Of a DNA stretch of 10,428 nt, positions 1 to 4,671 are shown in pieces. Position numbers and translations under genes: made by a program. The notes beneath the pieces are model-generated. The model made no database searches. It saw only the letters and a list, made by a program, of their open reading frames with translations, and had not been told where the DNA came from. Each line of letters begins with the position of its first letter. Position 1 is the first letter of the stretch. Source of the stretch: Verrucomicrobiota bacterium (GTDB lineage: Bacteria > Verrucomicrobiota > Verrucomicrobiia > Verrucomicrobiales > Akkermansiaceae); contig JAPLUJ010000607.1 in the NCBI GenBank assembly GCA_026397695.1, forward strand, positions 1-10,428, read 5' to 3'.

Positions 1-572
1 AACGGCGGGCCGCCGCTGTCGCTGTTGATGCTCATGCAGAGCCGCGAGATACCGCGGTCGAGCAGCGCCATCGCGCCGGCGCGCGGGAAGCCGTTCACGT
101 CGCTTTGCAGCGCGACCGCCGGCTTGAACTGCCGCCAGAGGTCTTCAGGAACCCAGTGCATCATCGTCCGCCATTGCGCCGCGTCGAGGAATGGCGCCTG
201 GTTGCACGGCACCGCCGCCACGTCGAGCTGGCCGCTGCGCAGCGCCTTCAGGAAATCCTTCCGCCGCGCTGGCGACGCCGCCTGCCACCAGTCGTCCACC
301 ACCATCAGCGACTCGGTAGTCCAGTGGAACTTCCGCTCTGCCGGCTTCGCCATCGTCGCCAGCACGCCATCGAGCGCGATGTCGAGGTAACGGCATTGCA
401 GTTCCCGGCACACGCCCGGCGTGTCAGTGAAGCCGATGTCGTTGTGCGAAAAGTGGATGATGTAGATGCGCTGGATCGCGGAGGCCGCTGGTGCCGGCTC
501 TGCGCCAGAAGTTGTTGTGGTGATGACTGCGACTGCCGCCAAAACCCAAAAGAGTTGTTTAATCGTTTTCAT
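1..572 (-). CDS. Secreted GH38-type glycosidase (alpha-mannosidase-like), N-terminal part
   Basis: Open for 190 codons from an ATG at 572 and still open at the window edge, so only the N-terminus is present. Residues 1-24 form a Sec signal peptide: basic MKTIK, a hydrophobic stretch, then a likely cut after SGA. The segment IHFSHNDIGFTDTP (about 39-52) matches the zinc-binding HxD entry motif of GH38-type catalytic domains, with His43 and Asp45 as presumed ligands. LQSDVNGFP (Asp158) sits where the GH38 nucleophile is expected. The HNDIGFTDTP form resembles the DUF5054-like branch rather than classical mannosidases, so the substrate is uncertain; mannosides are the family default. GAGAAG about 6 nt before the ATG is a plausible ribosome binding site and supports the start. 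It lies downstream of the GH127 gene on the same strand, after a 383-nt spacer containing a structured element 34 nt from the start codon. Confidence 0.75.
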   Translation of the reverse strand, partial: MKTIKQLFWVLAAVAVITTTTSGAEPAPAASAIQRIYIIHFSHNDIGFTDTPGVCRELQCRYLDIALDGVLATMAKPAERKFHWTTESLMVVDDWWQAASPARRKDFLKALRSGQLDVAAVPCNQAPFLDAAQWRTMMHWVPEDLWRQFKPAVALQSDVNGFPRAGAMALLDRGISRLCMSINSDSGGPP

Positions 573-955
573 ATCGTTCTTCTCAAGCTGAACGCGCGAA
601 GCGCCCTGGACTGCTGCGAGCATCGCAGCTCTTCGGCTGGGCGATTCAAGCGTCGCCACTCCGAGAGCGGCAATCCTTGCCGCAGTCCATAGCCTTCGGC
701 CCCACCGCGAGTAAATGTGCTCTGCCAAGCCTCGTCCAGCATTTACCTATGCACCCGCCGCCGATATCAGAATGAATTGTTGAAGCGGGTTTCCACTTCG
801 CTTCCTTTCTGTGGACAACCGAAAGGTCGGACTTTCACTTCCCGGCGCAACAACCCCCATTTCCCCGCCCTCTGTCATGGTTCGTGGATTTACATAAGGA
901 TTTATCTATCAGTGGGTGTTGCCATAGTCATTGGACCGGTGCTTCAGGGTTTGGC
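573..955. other. Spacer between the two glycosidase genes
   Basis: This 383-nt stretch shows no convincing gene. Plus-strand ORFs crossing it have no domain signal and look like chance readings. It holds the branched dyad element at 607-689, listed separately. Two small hairpins flank that element: GCGC-GAA-GCGC at 594-604 and GCC-TTC-GGC at 692-700. Further short dyads occur at 782-804 (GAAGCG/CGCTTC), 792-815 (TCCAC/GTGGA) and 821-836 (GAAAGGTC/GACTTTC with a bulged G). A promoter for the downstream minus-strand GH38 gene would be expected here, but I see no clear -35/-10 pair. No T-tract terminator follows the GH127 stop codon. Confidence 0.6.
607..689. other. Branched dyad element (perfect four-way junction), structured RNA or dispersed repeat
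   Basis: Every base belongs to a helix, a terminal loop or a small internal loop of one nested structure. The outer stem is 607-612 (TGGACT) with 684-689 (AGTCCA). Inside it, with no junction bases left unpaired, are three arms. Arm 1: 613-619 with 623-629, GCTGCGA/TCGCAGC, 3-nt loop. Arm 2: 630-636 with 661-666, TCTTCGG/CCGAGA with one bulge, then a 3x3 internal loop, then 640-644 with 653-657, GGCGA/TCGCC, 8-nt loop. Arm 3: 667-673 with 677-683, GCGGCAA/TTGCCGC, 3-nt loop. The ends lie 34 nt before the minus-strand GH38 start codon. It could be a leader RNA, or a dispersed extragenic repeat of the REP/MITE kind; I favour the repeat. Being palindromic overall, it would fold on either strand. 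Confidence 0.7.
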
Positions 956-2878
956 TCAGGGCAACGGAACCGCCTTGTCCGCGGTGCGCGGCAGCCAGAC
1001 CTCCATGGCGTTGGGTCCGCGATGACACCAAACCTGATAGGGAATGGCGGTCAGATCAACGGGACGCGTGGCCACCGTGCCGTCCTCGCGGTGGTACGCC
1101 TCCAGCGCCGTCCCTTCGAGCACGGTGATGCCGCCCAGCAACGCCGGGCGGGGCGCGGCCCGCAGGACCACCTCGTCAGTCAGCACGAGTTGTTGCACGC
1201 CGCCCGCGTTGTCGGCCCCTTCAACGCAATACACCAGCGGCCCGCGCTCCAGTGCCACCTTGCCCTTGGCAGACGACACCTTTTCGTTAGCTACCACCCG
1301 CTGCACCGGCATTGGCAAAATGAGCTCAACCCGGTCACCCGCGCGCCATGTGCGTTCGATCACGGCATAGCCCTTTGCGCGCGGCGCGTCCGTTAGCTCG
1401 CCGTTCACTTTCAGTTCCACCTTGATGTTCCCGCGATTCAGATAGGAATACAGGTCGGAAGGCAGCGGCCGGCCTTCGGCCCAACCGGGAATGCGCATGC
1501 GCAGCGCGAATTTGACAGGTTTTTCAGGATTGAGCTCTATCCGAACGGTCCCATCCCAAGGATACCCGGTTTTTTGGCACACCTTGACCGGGGTTCCCGC
1601 CAGAGTGACCTTGCCTTCACATGCCGCAAAGAGGTTGACATAGAGATCCGTTTTGCCGGCGGCAAACAGGTACTCGGACAACCGTGGCCAGAATCTGACC
1701 AAGTTTGCCGGGCAACACGGACAACCGTGCCAACTCCAGCGGACGGGATGATCCTTCCCCCGGCAGGACAACCGATTGACATAGAAAAAACGGTCCCCGC
1801 CCAGCCCCGCTCCAGCCGCCAAATTGTTATACAAAACACGCTCCACAACGTCATAGTATTTGGCGTTCCCTGTCGCCCGGAACATGCGGCTCGACCAGAA
1901 AATGTCCGCAATGGCTGAACAAGTCTCGCAATAGGATTCCTTGCCATCAGGAAGATCATAATCTTGCGGGAATCCTTCATGATGTCGGCTGTTGCCGACG
2001 CCACCCGTAATGTACATTTTGCGGCTGACCATCCGATCCCATTTTCTTTCCAGCAGACCGATCCGTTCCTGATCCCCTTTCAGAACACCCACGTCGCATG
2101 CCCCGGCATACAGGTACATGACGGCCACCGCATGTCCAAGCACGTCATCGTTTGCCAGTGCTGGCTGGCCATTGGACCAGAGGCTGATTTGCGTCTGGTA
2201 TCCGTTGACCAGGCGCTGCGCCAAGTCCAGATATTCCTGGCAACCGGTCGCCTGATACAGCTTGACAAGACCGATCTCGACTTCCGGATGCCCGGACACT
2301 TGGAGCAGCTTGCCTTCCTGGTTCACCTTCACCATCAGATCGGCTGCACGCCTGGCGACGGCGAGATAGTTCGTGCGTCCGGTTGTCCGGAAATGTTCAA
2401 CCGCCGACTCCATCAGATGCCCCATGCTGTAGGATTCGCATGTGCCGCTGGTTTCATTCGTAAACAGCTTGTAATTCGGCTGCGTAATTTGCAGGTGCGG
2501 GAAAAGGAAGCCGCTCTTGGCTTGCGAGCGGCCGATTTGGAAGATCAGGGTTTCCAGTTGTTTCTCAAGCCCGGGATCAGGCTGCGTGCGCAAACCGTAC
2601 AGTGCGCCTTCAATGGTCTTGTAGGTATCCGAATCGCCCCACATATAACCGTGATATTTTTCGGACGAGTCGCTGGCAAGGATCCGGAAGGCATCGATCG
2701 ACCCCTGCTTTTCCATTTCGCGGAAATTGTGCTCCACCGTGACCCGGCGGTTCGTGTCCTGCCGCGGCGCCCAGAGCGTGTCTGTTAGCTTGATGTCCGC
2801 GGGCACGCTATCATGATCTGTGCGAGTCGTCGTGAATGCATCGTGGTATTGCTGGGATTGGATTTTTTTGTGCTGCAA
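956..2878 (-). CDS. GH127 family beta-L-arabinofuranosidase
   Basis: A 640-residue protein of the DUF1680/GH127 family, which releases L-arabinofuranose from beta-linked arabino-oligosaccharides. It aligns through the whole catalytic domain with my recollection of Bifidobacterium HypBA1 (658 residues). Matching segments include YDLPDGKESYCETCSAIA (307-324), HGCPCCPANLVR (384-395), MRGPLVYC-like ERGPLVYC near 550, and IPYQVW near the C-terminus. By analogy the zinc site is Glu318, Cys320, Cys388 and Cys389, with Cys388 the nucleophile and Glu301 the acid/base. The listed start is a TTG, and an in-frame TGA lies only 3 nt upstream of it, so the frame cannot be extended. There is no signal peptide. 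The domain begins at VPADIKLTDTLWAP, so the GTG at 2806 is an alternative start. No Shine-Dalgarno sequence is visible before either. It is a cytoplasmic enzyme, or one that has lost its export signal. Confidence 0.88.
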   Translation of the reverse strand: MQHKKIQSQQYHDAFTTTRTDHDSVPADIKLTDTLWAPRQDTNRRVTVEHNFREMEKQGSIDAFRILASDSSEKYHGYMWGDSDTYKTIEGALYGLRTQPDPGLEKQLETLIFQIGRSQAKSGFLFPHLQITQPNYKLFTNETSGTCESYSMGHLMESAVEHFRTTGRTNYLAVARRAADLMVKVNQEGKLLQVSGHPEVEIGLVKLYQATGCQEYLDLAQRLVNGYQTQISLWSNGQPALANDDVLGHAVAVMYLYAGACDVGVLKGDQERIGLLERKWDRMVSRKMYITGGVGNSRHHEGFPQDYDLPDGKESYCETCSAIADIFWSSRMFRATGNAKYYDVVERVLYNNLAAGAGLGGDRFFYVNRLSCRGKDHPVRWSWHGCPCCPANLVRFWPRLSEYLFAAGKTDLYVNLFAACEGKVTLAGTPVKVCQKTGYPWDGTVRIELNPEKPVKFALRMRIPGWAEGRPLPSDLYSYLNRGNIKVELKVNGELTDAPRAKGYAVIERTWRAGDRVELILPMPVQRVVANEKVSSAKGKVALERGPLVYCVEGADNAGGVQQLVLTDEVVLRAAPRPALLGGITVLEGTALEAYHREDGTVATRPVDLTAIPYQVWCHRGPNAMEVWLPRTADKAVPLP

Positions 2879-3069: not shown

Positions 3070-3215
3070 GAATTGCCTGCCTGGGATCCTGAGTCGCGGC
3101 GGCATGCAGAAAACCAGTCGATTGAGGGTCACGGGTTCGGCCGGCAGCGCGACGTTCACAGGACCCTACGAAAAAAATGACCTTGATCGGCTGCGGCGCT
3201 ATGGCAGATGTGTAG
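3070..3215 (+). pseudogene. Possible decayed C-terminal tail of a DUF1680-type glycosidase
   Basis: Read across two frame changes, the plus strand gives ELPAWD (from 3070), then GGMQKTSRLRV...FTGPYEK (3098 to about 3175), then MTLIGCGAM (from 3177) and a TAG at 3213. The order Trp-Asp, a Gly-Met-Gln-Lys segment, a Pro-x-Glu, then TLIxxGA resembles the tail of many DUF1680 glycosidases, which end with a TLIPxGxxxLRI segment before the stop. The second frame change falls on a run of seven A (3171-3177), a typical indel site: removing one A joins GPYEK to MTLIG. This is pattern matching from memory over a short, low-information stretch and could be chance. If real, it is the remnant of a second, oppositely oriented glycosidase gene next to GH127. 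Confidence 0.25.
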
Positions 3216-3221
3216 CGGATG

Positions 3222-3236
3222 GTGTGGATTCCACAC
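3222..3236. promoter_or_regulatory. 15-nt palindrome, candidate operator
   Basis: GTGTGGATTCCACAC is a perfect 7-bp inverted repeat around one central T. It lies in the divergent spacer, 143 nt before the trpB2 start and 344 nt before the GH127 start. Size and symmetry fit a dimeric repressor site, but no regulator gene is in the window and only one copy was seen. Confidence 0.3.
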
Positions 3237-3378
3237 GGATTTGCCTGAGGGCAGCATGAAGGAAGACAGTCAGGCCATCGCATCTCCGAATTCAGAAAAA
3301 AACTTTAAGAGAAAACGCGTGACATGGCGGGTGCGTTTGCCTAGTTCTGCACGCGCCTTACGTGAAACCGCACACACC

Positions 3379-4671
3379 ATGAGCCAGCCCACCCGATTCA
3401 CATTGCCCCAGCAGGACATCCCGACCCATTGGTATAACCTCCTGCCGGATTTCCCAGAACCACTGCCACCACCGCTGCATCCGGGCACCAGGGAACCCAT
3501 CCCTGCGGAAGCATTGCTGGCGATCTTCCCAGAAAACCTCGTCCAACAGGAGATGAGTCCGCAGGGCCTGATAGAAATCCCGGAAGAAGTGCGCGACATC
3601 TATGCTCTCTGGCGGCCCACGCCGCTGCTGCGTGCGGTGCGCTTTGAAAAGGCACTGCAGACACCCGCCCACATTTACTACAAATATGAGGGTGCCAGCC
3701 CGGCCGGCAGCCACAAGCCCAACACCGCCGTCGCCCAAGCCTACTTCAACAAAGTGGCCGGCACCAAGCGGCTCGCCACCGAGACGGGCGCGGGCCAGTG
3801 GGGATCGTCCCTGGCGCTGGCCTGTCGGCTCTTTGGCCTGGAGTGCAATGTTTACATGGTCAAGGTGAGCTATCAGCAAAAACCCTATCGACGCATGCTC
3901 ATGCACACTTGGGGTGCCACGGTGCACGCCAGCCCGAGCGACCAGACCGCGTATGGGCGCAAGCTGCTCGCCGAGGACCCGCATTGTCTGGGCAGTCTCG
4001 GCATTGCCATCAGCGAGGCCATCGAGGACACCGTCACCCATCCTGACACGAAATACTCACTCGGCAGCGTGCTCAACCATGTGTGTCTGCATCAGACGGT
4101 CATCGGCCAGGAATCCATCAAACAAATGGAGTTGGCCGGCGAGGAACCCGATACGATCATCGGGTGCTGCGGCGGCGGCAGCAATTTCGCCGGGCTGGCA
4201 TTTCCATTCATGGAGAAGAAAATCAAGGAGCGGAAGAACTATCGCATTGTCGGGGTCGAGCCGTTCGCTTGCCCGACACTGACGCAAGGCGATCTGCGCT
4301 ACGACTTCGGGGACACGGCGGAAACGACGCCGTTGCTGATGATGTACACGCTCGGCCACAAGTTCATGCCGCCGTGACTGCGCTATCACGGCATGTCACC
4401 GATGGTCAGCCATGCACTCAAACTGGGGCTGATGGAAGCGGAATCCCATCACCAGACCAAGGTGTTCGAGGCTGGCACGCTGTTTGCCCGCAGCGAAGGC
4501 ATCGTGCCAGCACCGGAATCCGCCCATGCCATCGCATCCGTCGTGGATGAAGCCATCAAAGCACGCGAAACAGGCGAAAAACGCGTCATCCTCTTCAATC
4601 TGTCCGGCCACGGCCTGCTCGACCTGAGCGCCTACGAAACCTGTCTGTCAGGAAAAATGCAGGACGCCTGA
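3379..4671 (+). pseudogene. trpB: TrpB2-type tryptophan synthase beta chain, interrupted by in-frame TGA
   Basis: This would encode a stand-alone tryptophan synthase beta subunit of the TrpB2 class, a PLP enzyme joining indole and L-serine. From the ATG at 3379 it matches the family: IPTHWYN, the PLP lysine in SHKPN (Lys113), ETGAGQWG (135-142), and the phosphate-binding GGGSN (265-269). After residue 332 (KFMPP) comes TGA at 4375-4377. The same frame then resumes at once with LRYHGMSP and runs with good family matches (GIVPAPESAHAI, NLSGHG) to a true TGA at 4669-4671. In the family I recall, about six residues ending in HAGG lie between PP and LRYHG. All are absent and one stop codon stands in their place, which equals a net 15-nt loss that keeps frame. 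Upstream in-frame Met codons at 3208 and 3256 precede the family start. No Shine-Dalgarno is seen. The choice between pseudogene and assembly error is open. Confidence 0.85.

Follow-up and report, generated by a model that had tools for sequence, protein, structure and literature searches.

A probable REPIN-like palindromic DNA repeat upstream of a GH38 gene in a Verrucomicrobiota draft genome

MITEs are short, non-coding, dispersed elements with inverted ends. The REPIN, in the sections of Bertels and Rainey (2011, PMC3116915) that deal with its structure, is an inverted doublet of REP sequences that forms hairpins in single-stranded DNA and carries compensatory changes. The legend of Figure S11 there proposes that a RAYT would read a 'clover' fold of lower stability. 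GTAG- or CGTC-tagged REPs and TIRtron repeats are, in the corresponding portions of PMC3733652, short palindromes that are often dimers, whose parts may fold on their own or together into a single large stem-loop. The same portions present the verrucomicrobial genome of O. terrae as rich in GTAG repeats and some TIRs as self-complementary.

The element described here lies in a 10,428-nt stretch of DNA (the window, which is contig G000:C597; the draft genome totals 4.53 Mb and is 82.8% complete). Together with its flanking hairpins (∼594-700) it is probably one copy of a dispersed, non-autonomous, palindromic REPIN-like DNA repeat. In the respects covered by the above sections of PMC3116915 it resembles a REPIN: two inverted short palindromic units, a variable spacer, an extragenic position, hairpins in single-stranded DNA and compensatory changes. 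It differs in its ends, TTTGGA(G/C)T, which are common to records from several phyla, and in its widely variable arm sequence. Short palindromic repeats and a dimer-type folding choice are shared with the GTAG/CGTC REPs and TIRtrons of PMC3733652, as far as described there, but the window family is without either tag flush with its arms. A TIRtron-like motif was noticed only in the variant of genome G098: GGGGACAG, the complement of its tail, fits the GGGGWSAS TIR motif given in that part of PMC3733652.

With MITEs the family shares shortness, the lack of coding capacity, inverted ends, dispersal and one tested site that is empty in two congeners. Unlike MITEs, it has hairpin arms at its ends in place of simple terminal inverted repeats, and neither a target-site duplication nor a parental transposon was identified.

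Anatomy and predicted fold of the element

The 83-nt element (window 607-689) is separated by 34 nt from the ATG of a GH38 gene and by 267 nt from the stop codon of a GH127 gene. The features of the locus are as follows.

3-572, minus strand: GH38 gene, N-terminal part in the window (PF01074), ATG at 572-570
594-604: left flanking hairpin, GCGC-GAA-GCGC; in some relatives it lies outside the ends
607-612: outer stem, 5' side, TGGACT, keeping the family end TGGA(G/C)T
613-629: arm 1, 7-bp hairpin GCTGCGA-GCA-TCGCAGC with a 3-nt loop, flush with the outer stem
630-666: arm 2 (middle), two stacked stems with an internal loop and one bulge; the variable part of the family
667-683: arm 3, 7-bp hairpin GCGGCAA-TCC-TTGCCGC with a 3-nt loop; arm 1 inverted and diverged
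684-689: outer stem, 3' side, AGTCCA
692-700: right flanking hairpin, GCC-TTC-GGC; the same flank occurs in the G005 copy L003
956-2878, minus strand: GH127 gene, bordering the intergenic region opposite GH38 (PF07944)

A preliminary description of this DNA had proposed a four-way junction from a 6-bp outer stem and three arms, and all of its coordinates match, with zero unpaired junction bases. The proposed arm shapes, two 7-bp stems with 3-nt loops and a third arm of stacked stems with internal loop and bulge, were likewise recovered. Both hairpins that it placed at 594-604 and 692-700 are there, and similar ones flank some other copies; the left one falls inside a 26-nt identity with G015 (L002). 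Flanking hairpins of at least 4 bp were not enriched over shuffles (16/216 versus 12.8), and those of at least 3 bp numbered 87/216 versus 43.9 in shuffles, in a set that includes near-identical G098 flanks. The outer flanks of L046-L049 have 2-3 bases beyond TGGACT/AGTCCA that lengthen the palindrome, with letters differing per copy, as if the target had been palindromic already or had turned palindromic.

Closure of this kind had been called very unlikely by chance, which the stability calculations bear out: z was -5.06 with RNA and -4.61 with DNA parameters, and 0/200 dinucleotide shuffles were equally stable. Complete folding into the junction holds for the window element as single-stranded DNA, where the clover is the predicted ground state or at most 0.2 kcal/mol above it. 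With DNA parameters, clover arm pairs had P 0.94-0.95 on the plus strand and P 0.88-0.89 on the minus strand, where the minimum was -26.9 versus -26.7 for the junction. It does not hold for the predicted RNA ground state. When RNA parameters were used, one interrupted hairpin in which arm 1 pairs with arm 3 reached -47.1 or -48.2 versus -42.6 kcal/mol for the junction and was better by 4.5 (plus) to 5.6 (minus) kcal/mol; the arm pairs had P 0.07 on the plus strand and 0.001 on the minus strand. Equally stable alternative structures, which the preliminary description had named as evidence against its fold, are predicted for the RNA.

Other features of the contig were recorded. Window 846-872 (CAACCCCCATTTCCCCGCCCTC) is itself a repeat with near-exact matches in more than 10 genomes of the genus, followed by shared sequence in several genomes, as at a mobile-element end; the 99% match between the window and G358 (below) ends inside it, at 867. 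Window 867-896 recurs on host contig C660 (L381), beside pieces 97-100% identical to the window GH127 gene. These pieces correspond to window 1366-1558 and 1789-1843, and the whole is a second, rearranged partial copy. The TrpB-like gene at 3208-4671 (NF009057) is interrupted in frame by a TGA at 4375-4377, and its C-terminal part resumes in the same frame at 4393.

Copies, ends and arms of the family

No full-length second copy was found in the host by blastn, and full-length blastn in 19 relatives returned only short pieces. End patterns were required because the variable arms defeat full-length blastn. Two blastn leads, in G015 (26 nt, perfect) and in G005 (41 nt, 83%), pointed to elements that have the same ends and arms and one flanking hairpin each. 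A whole-element MAFFT alignment of six elements put the arms out of register. The family ends are TTTGGA(G/C)T...A(G/C)TCCAAA, followed at each end by a variable but self-complementary hairpin arm. The conserved features are the end TGGA(G/C)T and the self-complementarity of each arm.

The pattern TGGACTGC-N45..75-GCAGTCCA was found in 6/59 genomes including the host, and its reversed control in 1 genome. The G001 match is 83 nt long and by eye has an outer stem and three abutting arms, one of them bulged, of quite different sequences; at minimum energy, however, it folds into the long hairpin even when DNA parameters are used. L048 forms just one long hairpin, of 62 nt. L045 lacks flush arms and was rejected as a chance match, and the TGGACTGC..GCAGTCCA pair alone was discarded as a diagnostic since it lets in matches of that kind. 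The pattern TTTGGA(G/C)TGCGGC-N3..25-GCCGCTTT was present in 47/286 class genomes (reversed control 0/286) and missing, as an exact end pattern, from 239/286. Exact counts were highly uneven: 96+91 in G098, 27+29 in G257, 16+12 in G110, 6+18 in G299 and 1+1, i.e. 2 matches, in the host. Extragenic position was checked for 12 copies. In the G098 copies inspected the repeat is longer and one-ended, carries a GTGTCTGTCCCC-like tail and lacks an exact partner end; at L069 and L135-L141 this high-copy variant consists of a TTTGGAGTGCGGC arm and a conserved CAACGTGTCTGTCCCC-like tail.

Named genomes were scanned with a slightly longer pattern, which gave at least 117 stretches; 80 loci were examined among the matches listed. 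The record titles among these matches include Verrucomicrobia, Planctomycetes, Acidobacteria, Chlamydiae, Lentisphaeria, Kiritimatiellae, Hydrogenedentota, WOR-3, Coatesbacteria, Rhodothermaeota and a Sphaerobacter MAG; nearly all are metagenome-assembled and single titles are unreliable. At the 80 listed loci an exact partner end lay within 220 nt for 33/83 ends. Similar GGAGTGCGGC palindromes presumably also occur elsewhere in Verrucomicrobia and Planctomycetes sequences. No description of TTTGGA(G/C)T ends was found in open-licence literature.

In IMG/VR, 36 viral-contig stretches (L414-L449) bear the end-plus-arm pattern, some as inverted pairs, and phages or provirus flanks may be carriers of the element. 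Tandem elements with short spacers were seen in L067 (G114), L456 (G136) and L191 (G257), so copies multiply locally as well.

Conservation of the arms as hairpins was measured at the fetched loci. An exact partner end GCA(G/C)TCCA lay within 260 nt for 80/145 ends, and one with at most one mismatch for 99/145. The 79 distinct exact partner ends had been picked on eight bases only, with pairing disregarded, and 63/79 had a hairpin of at least 6 bp starting exactly at the outer stem (200 shuffles: mean 1.2, maximum 5). In the 17 distinct 18-nt arms from these 79, 97.5% of cells were paired and double changes occurred at 5/7 pairs. Their covariation score was 0.526 versus 0.148 when shuffled; 0/500 shuffles and no slid version scored as high, in controls that removed relatedness only partly.

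Because arms 1 and 3 are in many cases inverted versions of one another, a comparison is available within each element. Stem changes were then counted in 93 ordered pairs of non-identical arms at least 55% alike, with the test arm free and the reference arm chosen for pairing; one pair may count twice, and related elements are non-independent, with kinship ignored. Among 452 stem pairs, 299 were unchanged, 121 had double and 32 single changes, where 41.5 double and 191 single changes would be expected if the two sides were independent. Watson-Crick pairing was kept in 114/121 double changes, the commonest being G-C to C-G flips (62/114). The single changes comprised 5 GT, 3 AC and 24 others. 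GT about as rare as AC, with many G-C/C-G flips, is unlike RNA helices drifting via G-U; this is suggestive only, the copies being unoriented by transcript.

Flush arms of at least 6 bp were present at both ends in 119/167 candidate end pairs from the fetched loci, the window having 7 bp at both, and these candidate copies span 55 to 226 nt. Arm 1 of the window differs from the reverse complement of arm 3 at five positions, which make up two stem pairs and one loop base. The changed stem pairs are T-A versus G-C and G-C versus A-T, and in each case the arm itself supplies the compensating change. The relative L070, which belongs to a different family of the class, differs from the window in arm 1 by one compensated pair (T-A versus G-C), and its arm 3 is identical. 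Double changes from arm to arm keep the hairpin of each arm and put mismatches into the long hairpin. Complementarity between arms 1 and 3 is also largely kept, with 639/928 stem bases and 314/389 loop bases the same.

With DNA parameters the arms reached P >0.5 on at least one strand in 17/119 two-flush-arm copies, and with RNA parameters in 8/119. Even as DNA, the clover was not favoured on either strand in 102/119 copies; none of the 18 copies with identical arms favoured it. Five other elements that were folded gave mostly the long hairpin. The window is among the 17 clover-favouring copies (0.95 and 0.88) and its relative L070 is not. Given 17/119 for DNA and 8/119 for RNA, the window counts as a favourable case, and for most copies a fold other than the clover is predicted at equilibrium. 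By the same DNA count, the hypothesis that mismatches between the arms tip the balance towards the clover in general was rejected. If a protein reads the clover, this form would have to arise kinetically while the strand is synthesised or unwound, or be stabilised by the protein.

The suggestion of a dispersed or MITE-like repeat acting at the DNA level is supported: the same architecture occurs within the genus, in further classes and under record titles from other phyla, and the arms covary. The repeat is not peculiar to this lineage, though, and is scarce in the host, with two exact end matches and no further full copy by blastn. The preliminary description would have been weakened by the lack of both a second copy and covariation; copies and covarying arms were found.

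Movement and the putative mobiliser

The window arm type was found in 2/387 genomes of the phylum, namely the host (both arms) and G428, which belongs to another class. G428 has 16+8 = 24 arm-type matches; at three of the places listed they form complete inverted pairs, 104-132 nt long. The window left flank GCGCGAAGCGCC is exact in two listed G428 copies, with variants in others. From sequence comparison this sharing suggests transfer between classes or mis-binning of the contig. Mis-binning is disfavoured because G358, of the same genus as the host and also a draft, has the window locus with the element (860/867 positions identical, 99%).

An empty-site test was carried out on one of seven inspected loci of G257 (genus g71), picked for its clear intergenic position. 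Eight genomes were searched, G257 included. Both flanks were present without the element in the congeners G369 and G136, with anchor-to-anchor lengths of 223 and 246 nt versus 510 nt in G257; G370 and G130 matched one flank only. The G257 presence/absence site, located to the interval between the anchors, is a single locus outside the genus of the host, and loss rather than gain may account for it. No target-site duplication was recognised in the flanks by eye, where palindromic sequence blurs it. Many of the source genomes are metagenome-assembled.

The most likely mechanism of movement, presumed for the window copy too, is as follows. Replication would expose a strand on which the arms fold; a structure-reading, single-strand transposase would recognise the hairpins next to the conserved end sequences; excision or copying of the element and insertion between genes would follow. 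Recognition would take place in single-stranded DNA, with the clover, not the long hairpin, as the presumed working form.

Candidate mobilisers were sought among Y1 and RAYT genes. Y1 transposase domains were found in 16/16 genomes tried, and the RAYT model NF047646 matched 218/286 class genomes (132 over the cut-off), so that RAYT presence was rejected as a discriminator. Element ends with a flush arm were found at none of 60 Y1/RAYT loci (187 kb), a minority of the RAYT genes in these genomes, with the second 30 loci coming mostly from genomes lacking an exact end-pattern match; the same test recovers 36 positive-set loci. Six further stretches had no element ends flanking RAYT genes. G257 copies lie ∼3.5 kb from a Y1 gene. 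GTAG or CGTC flush with an arm was found at 0/476 arm edges, of which the 238 outer ones are GAGT/GACT by search design and the inner ones mostly free. Because neither tag was found at these edges and no linked RAYT at the loci covered, the element was treated as REPIN-like in its working and was not filed as a REPIN.

The element may instead be a genuine RAYT/REPIN or TIRtron repeat with a transposase gene that escaped the search; this is a possibility of some weight, if not the expected one, and it overlaps the reading preferred here. The doublet architecture is the same, the clover has been proposed for REPINs (PMC3116915, in the legend cited above), the RAYT model matches most genomes of the class, and the motif in G098 copies resembles GGGGWSAS TIRs. 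Against it stand the arm edges without tags, half of them fixed by the search, and the 60 loci without element ends, subject to the sampling just described.

Host function, leader RNA and significance

A quite unlikely alternative, compatible with mobility, is that the element is a BIME-type DNA or mRNA 3'-end site kept for the host, through nucleoid-protein or gyrase binding or protection of transcript ends. It gains from the strong hairpins, of which the long one is usually predicted, and from position: 7/12 copies start no more than 60 nt past the stop codon of a gene with Pfam support, a raw count that leaves gene density aside. The window copy is unlike those seven; it precedes a start codon and is far from the GH127 stop. 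The presence/absence site and the patchy copy number also look mobile.

The other suggestion of the preliminary description, that the GH38 gene has a structured leader RNA such as a riboswitch or attenuator, is highly improbable and finds no backing in the other copies. It was attractive for the strong predicted fold just upstream of the GH38 start codon and for a locus that G358 retains with 99% identity across 867 nt. Yet the other copies adjoin unrelated genes, often shortly past stop codons. Twenty flanking proteins of 12 other copies were scanned, 17 with Pfam matches, and 0/20 was a glycosidase. The neighbours include an M20 peptidase, tRNA synthetases, an LRR protein, Bro-N, a DNA methylase, isocitrate/isopropylmalate dehydrogenase, an outer-membrane efflux protein, a permease, a histidine kinase, an O-antigen ligase, sugar-nucleotide enzymes, PNPOx and others. 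Rfam returned no family at gathering score for the window element, and its RNA ground state is the long hairpin, interrupted by the differences between arms 1 and 3. The G358 substitution at window 642 (C to T, in arm 2) creates an A-C mismatch on the strand that is sense for GH38, and that at 597 (C to A) breaks the left flanking hairpin. The single-change count (5 GT, 3 AC), from copies unoriented by transcript, is weak evidence against RNA. Any effect of the element on GH38 would be incidental.

A chance palindrome, for which the GC-rich region might speak, has a negligible probability in view of the shuffles and of homologous copies with covariation.

A wider reading of the preferred REPIN-like repeat is offered tentatively, and as a whole is somewhat unlikely. 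The family would be a multi-phylum single-stranded DNA 'clover' family apart from RAYT REPINs, with a putative mobiliser. Entire palindromic arms would be replaced in a concerted way as the family diversifies, keeping self-complementarity without wobble intermediates, and the window copy would have come from another class.

The clover form of REPIN-like repeats is only a proposal in the relevant part of PMC3116915. Two diverged arm copies in one element provide a direct comparison, in which the changed stem pairs spare the arm hairpin and interrupt the long hairpin. The family also carries a caution, that strongly folded, covarying intergenic elements need not be regulatory RNAs. Its conserved ends let the family be mapped across phyla, its transposase be hunted and its movement between classes be followed.
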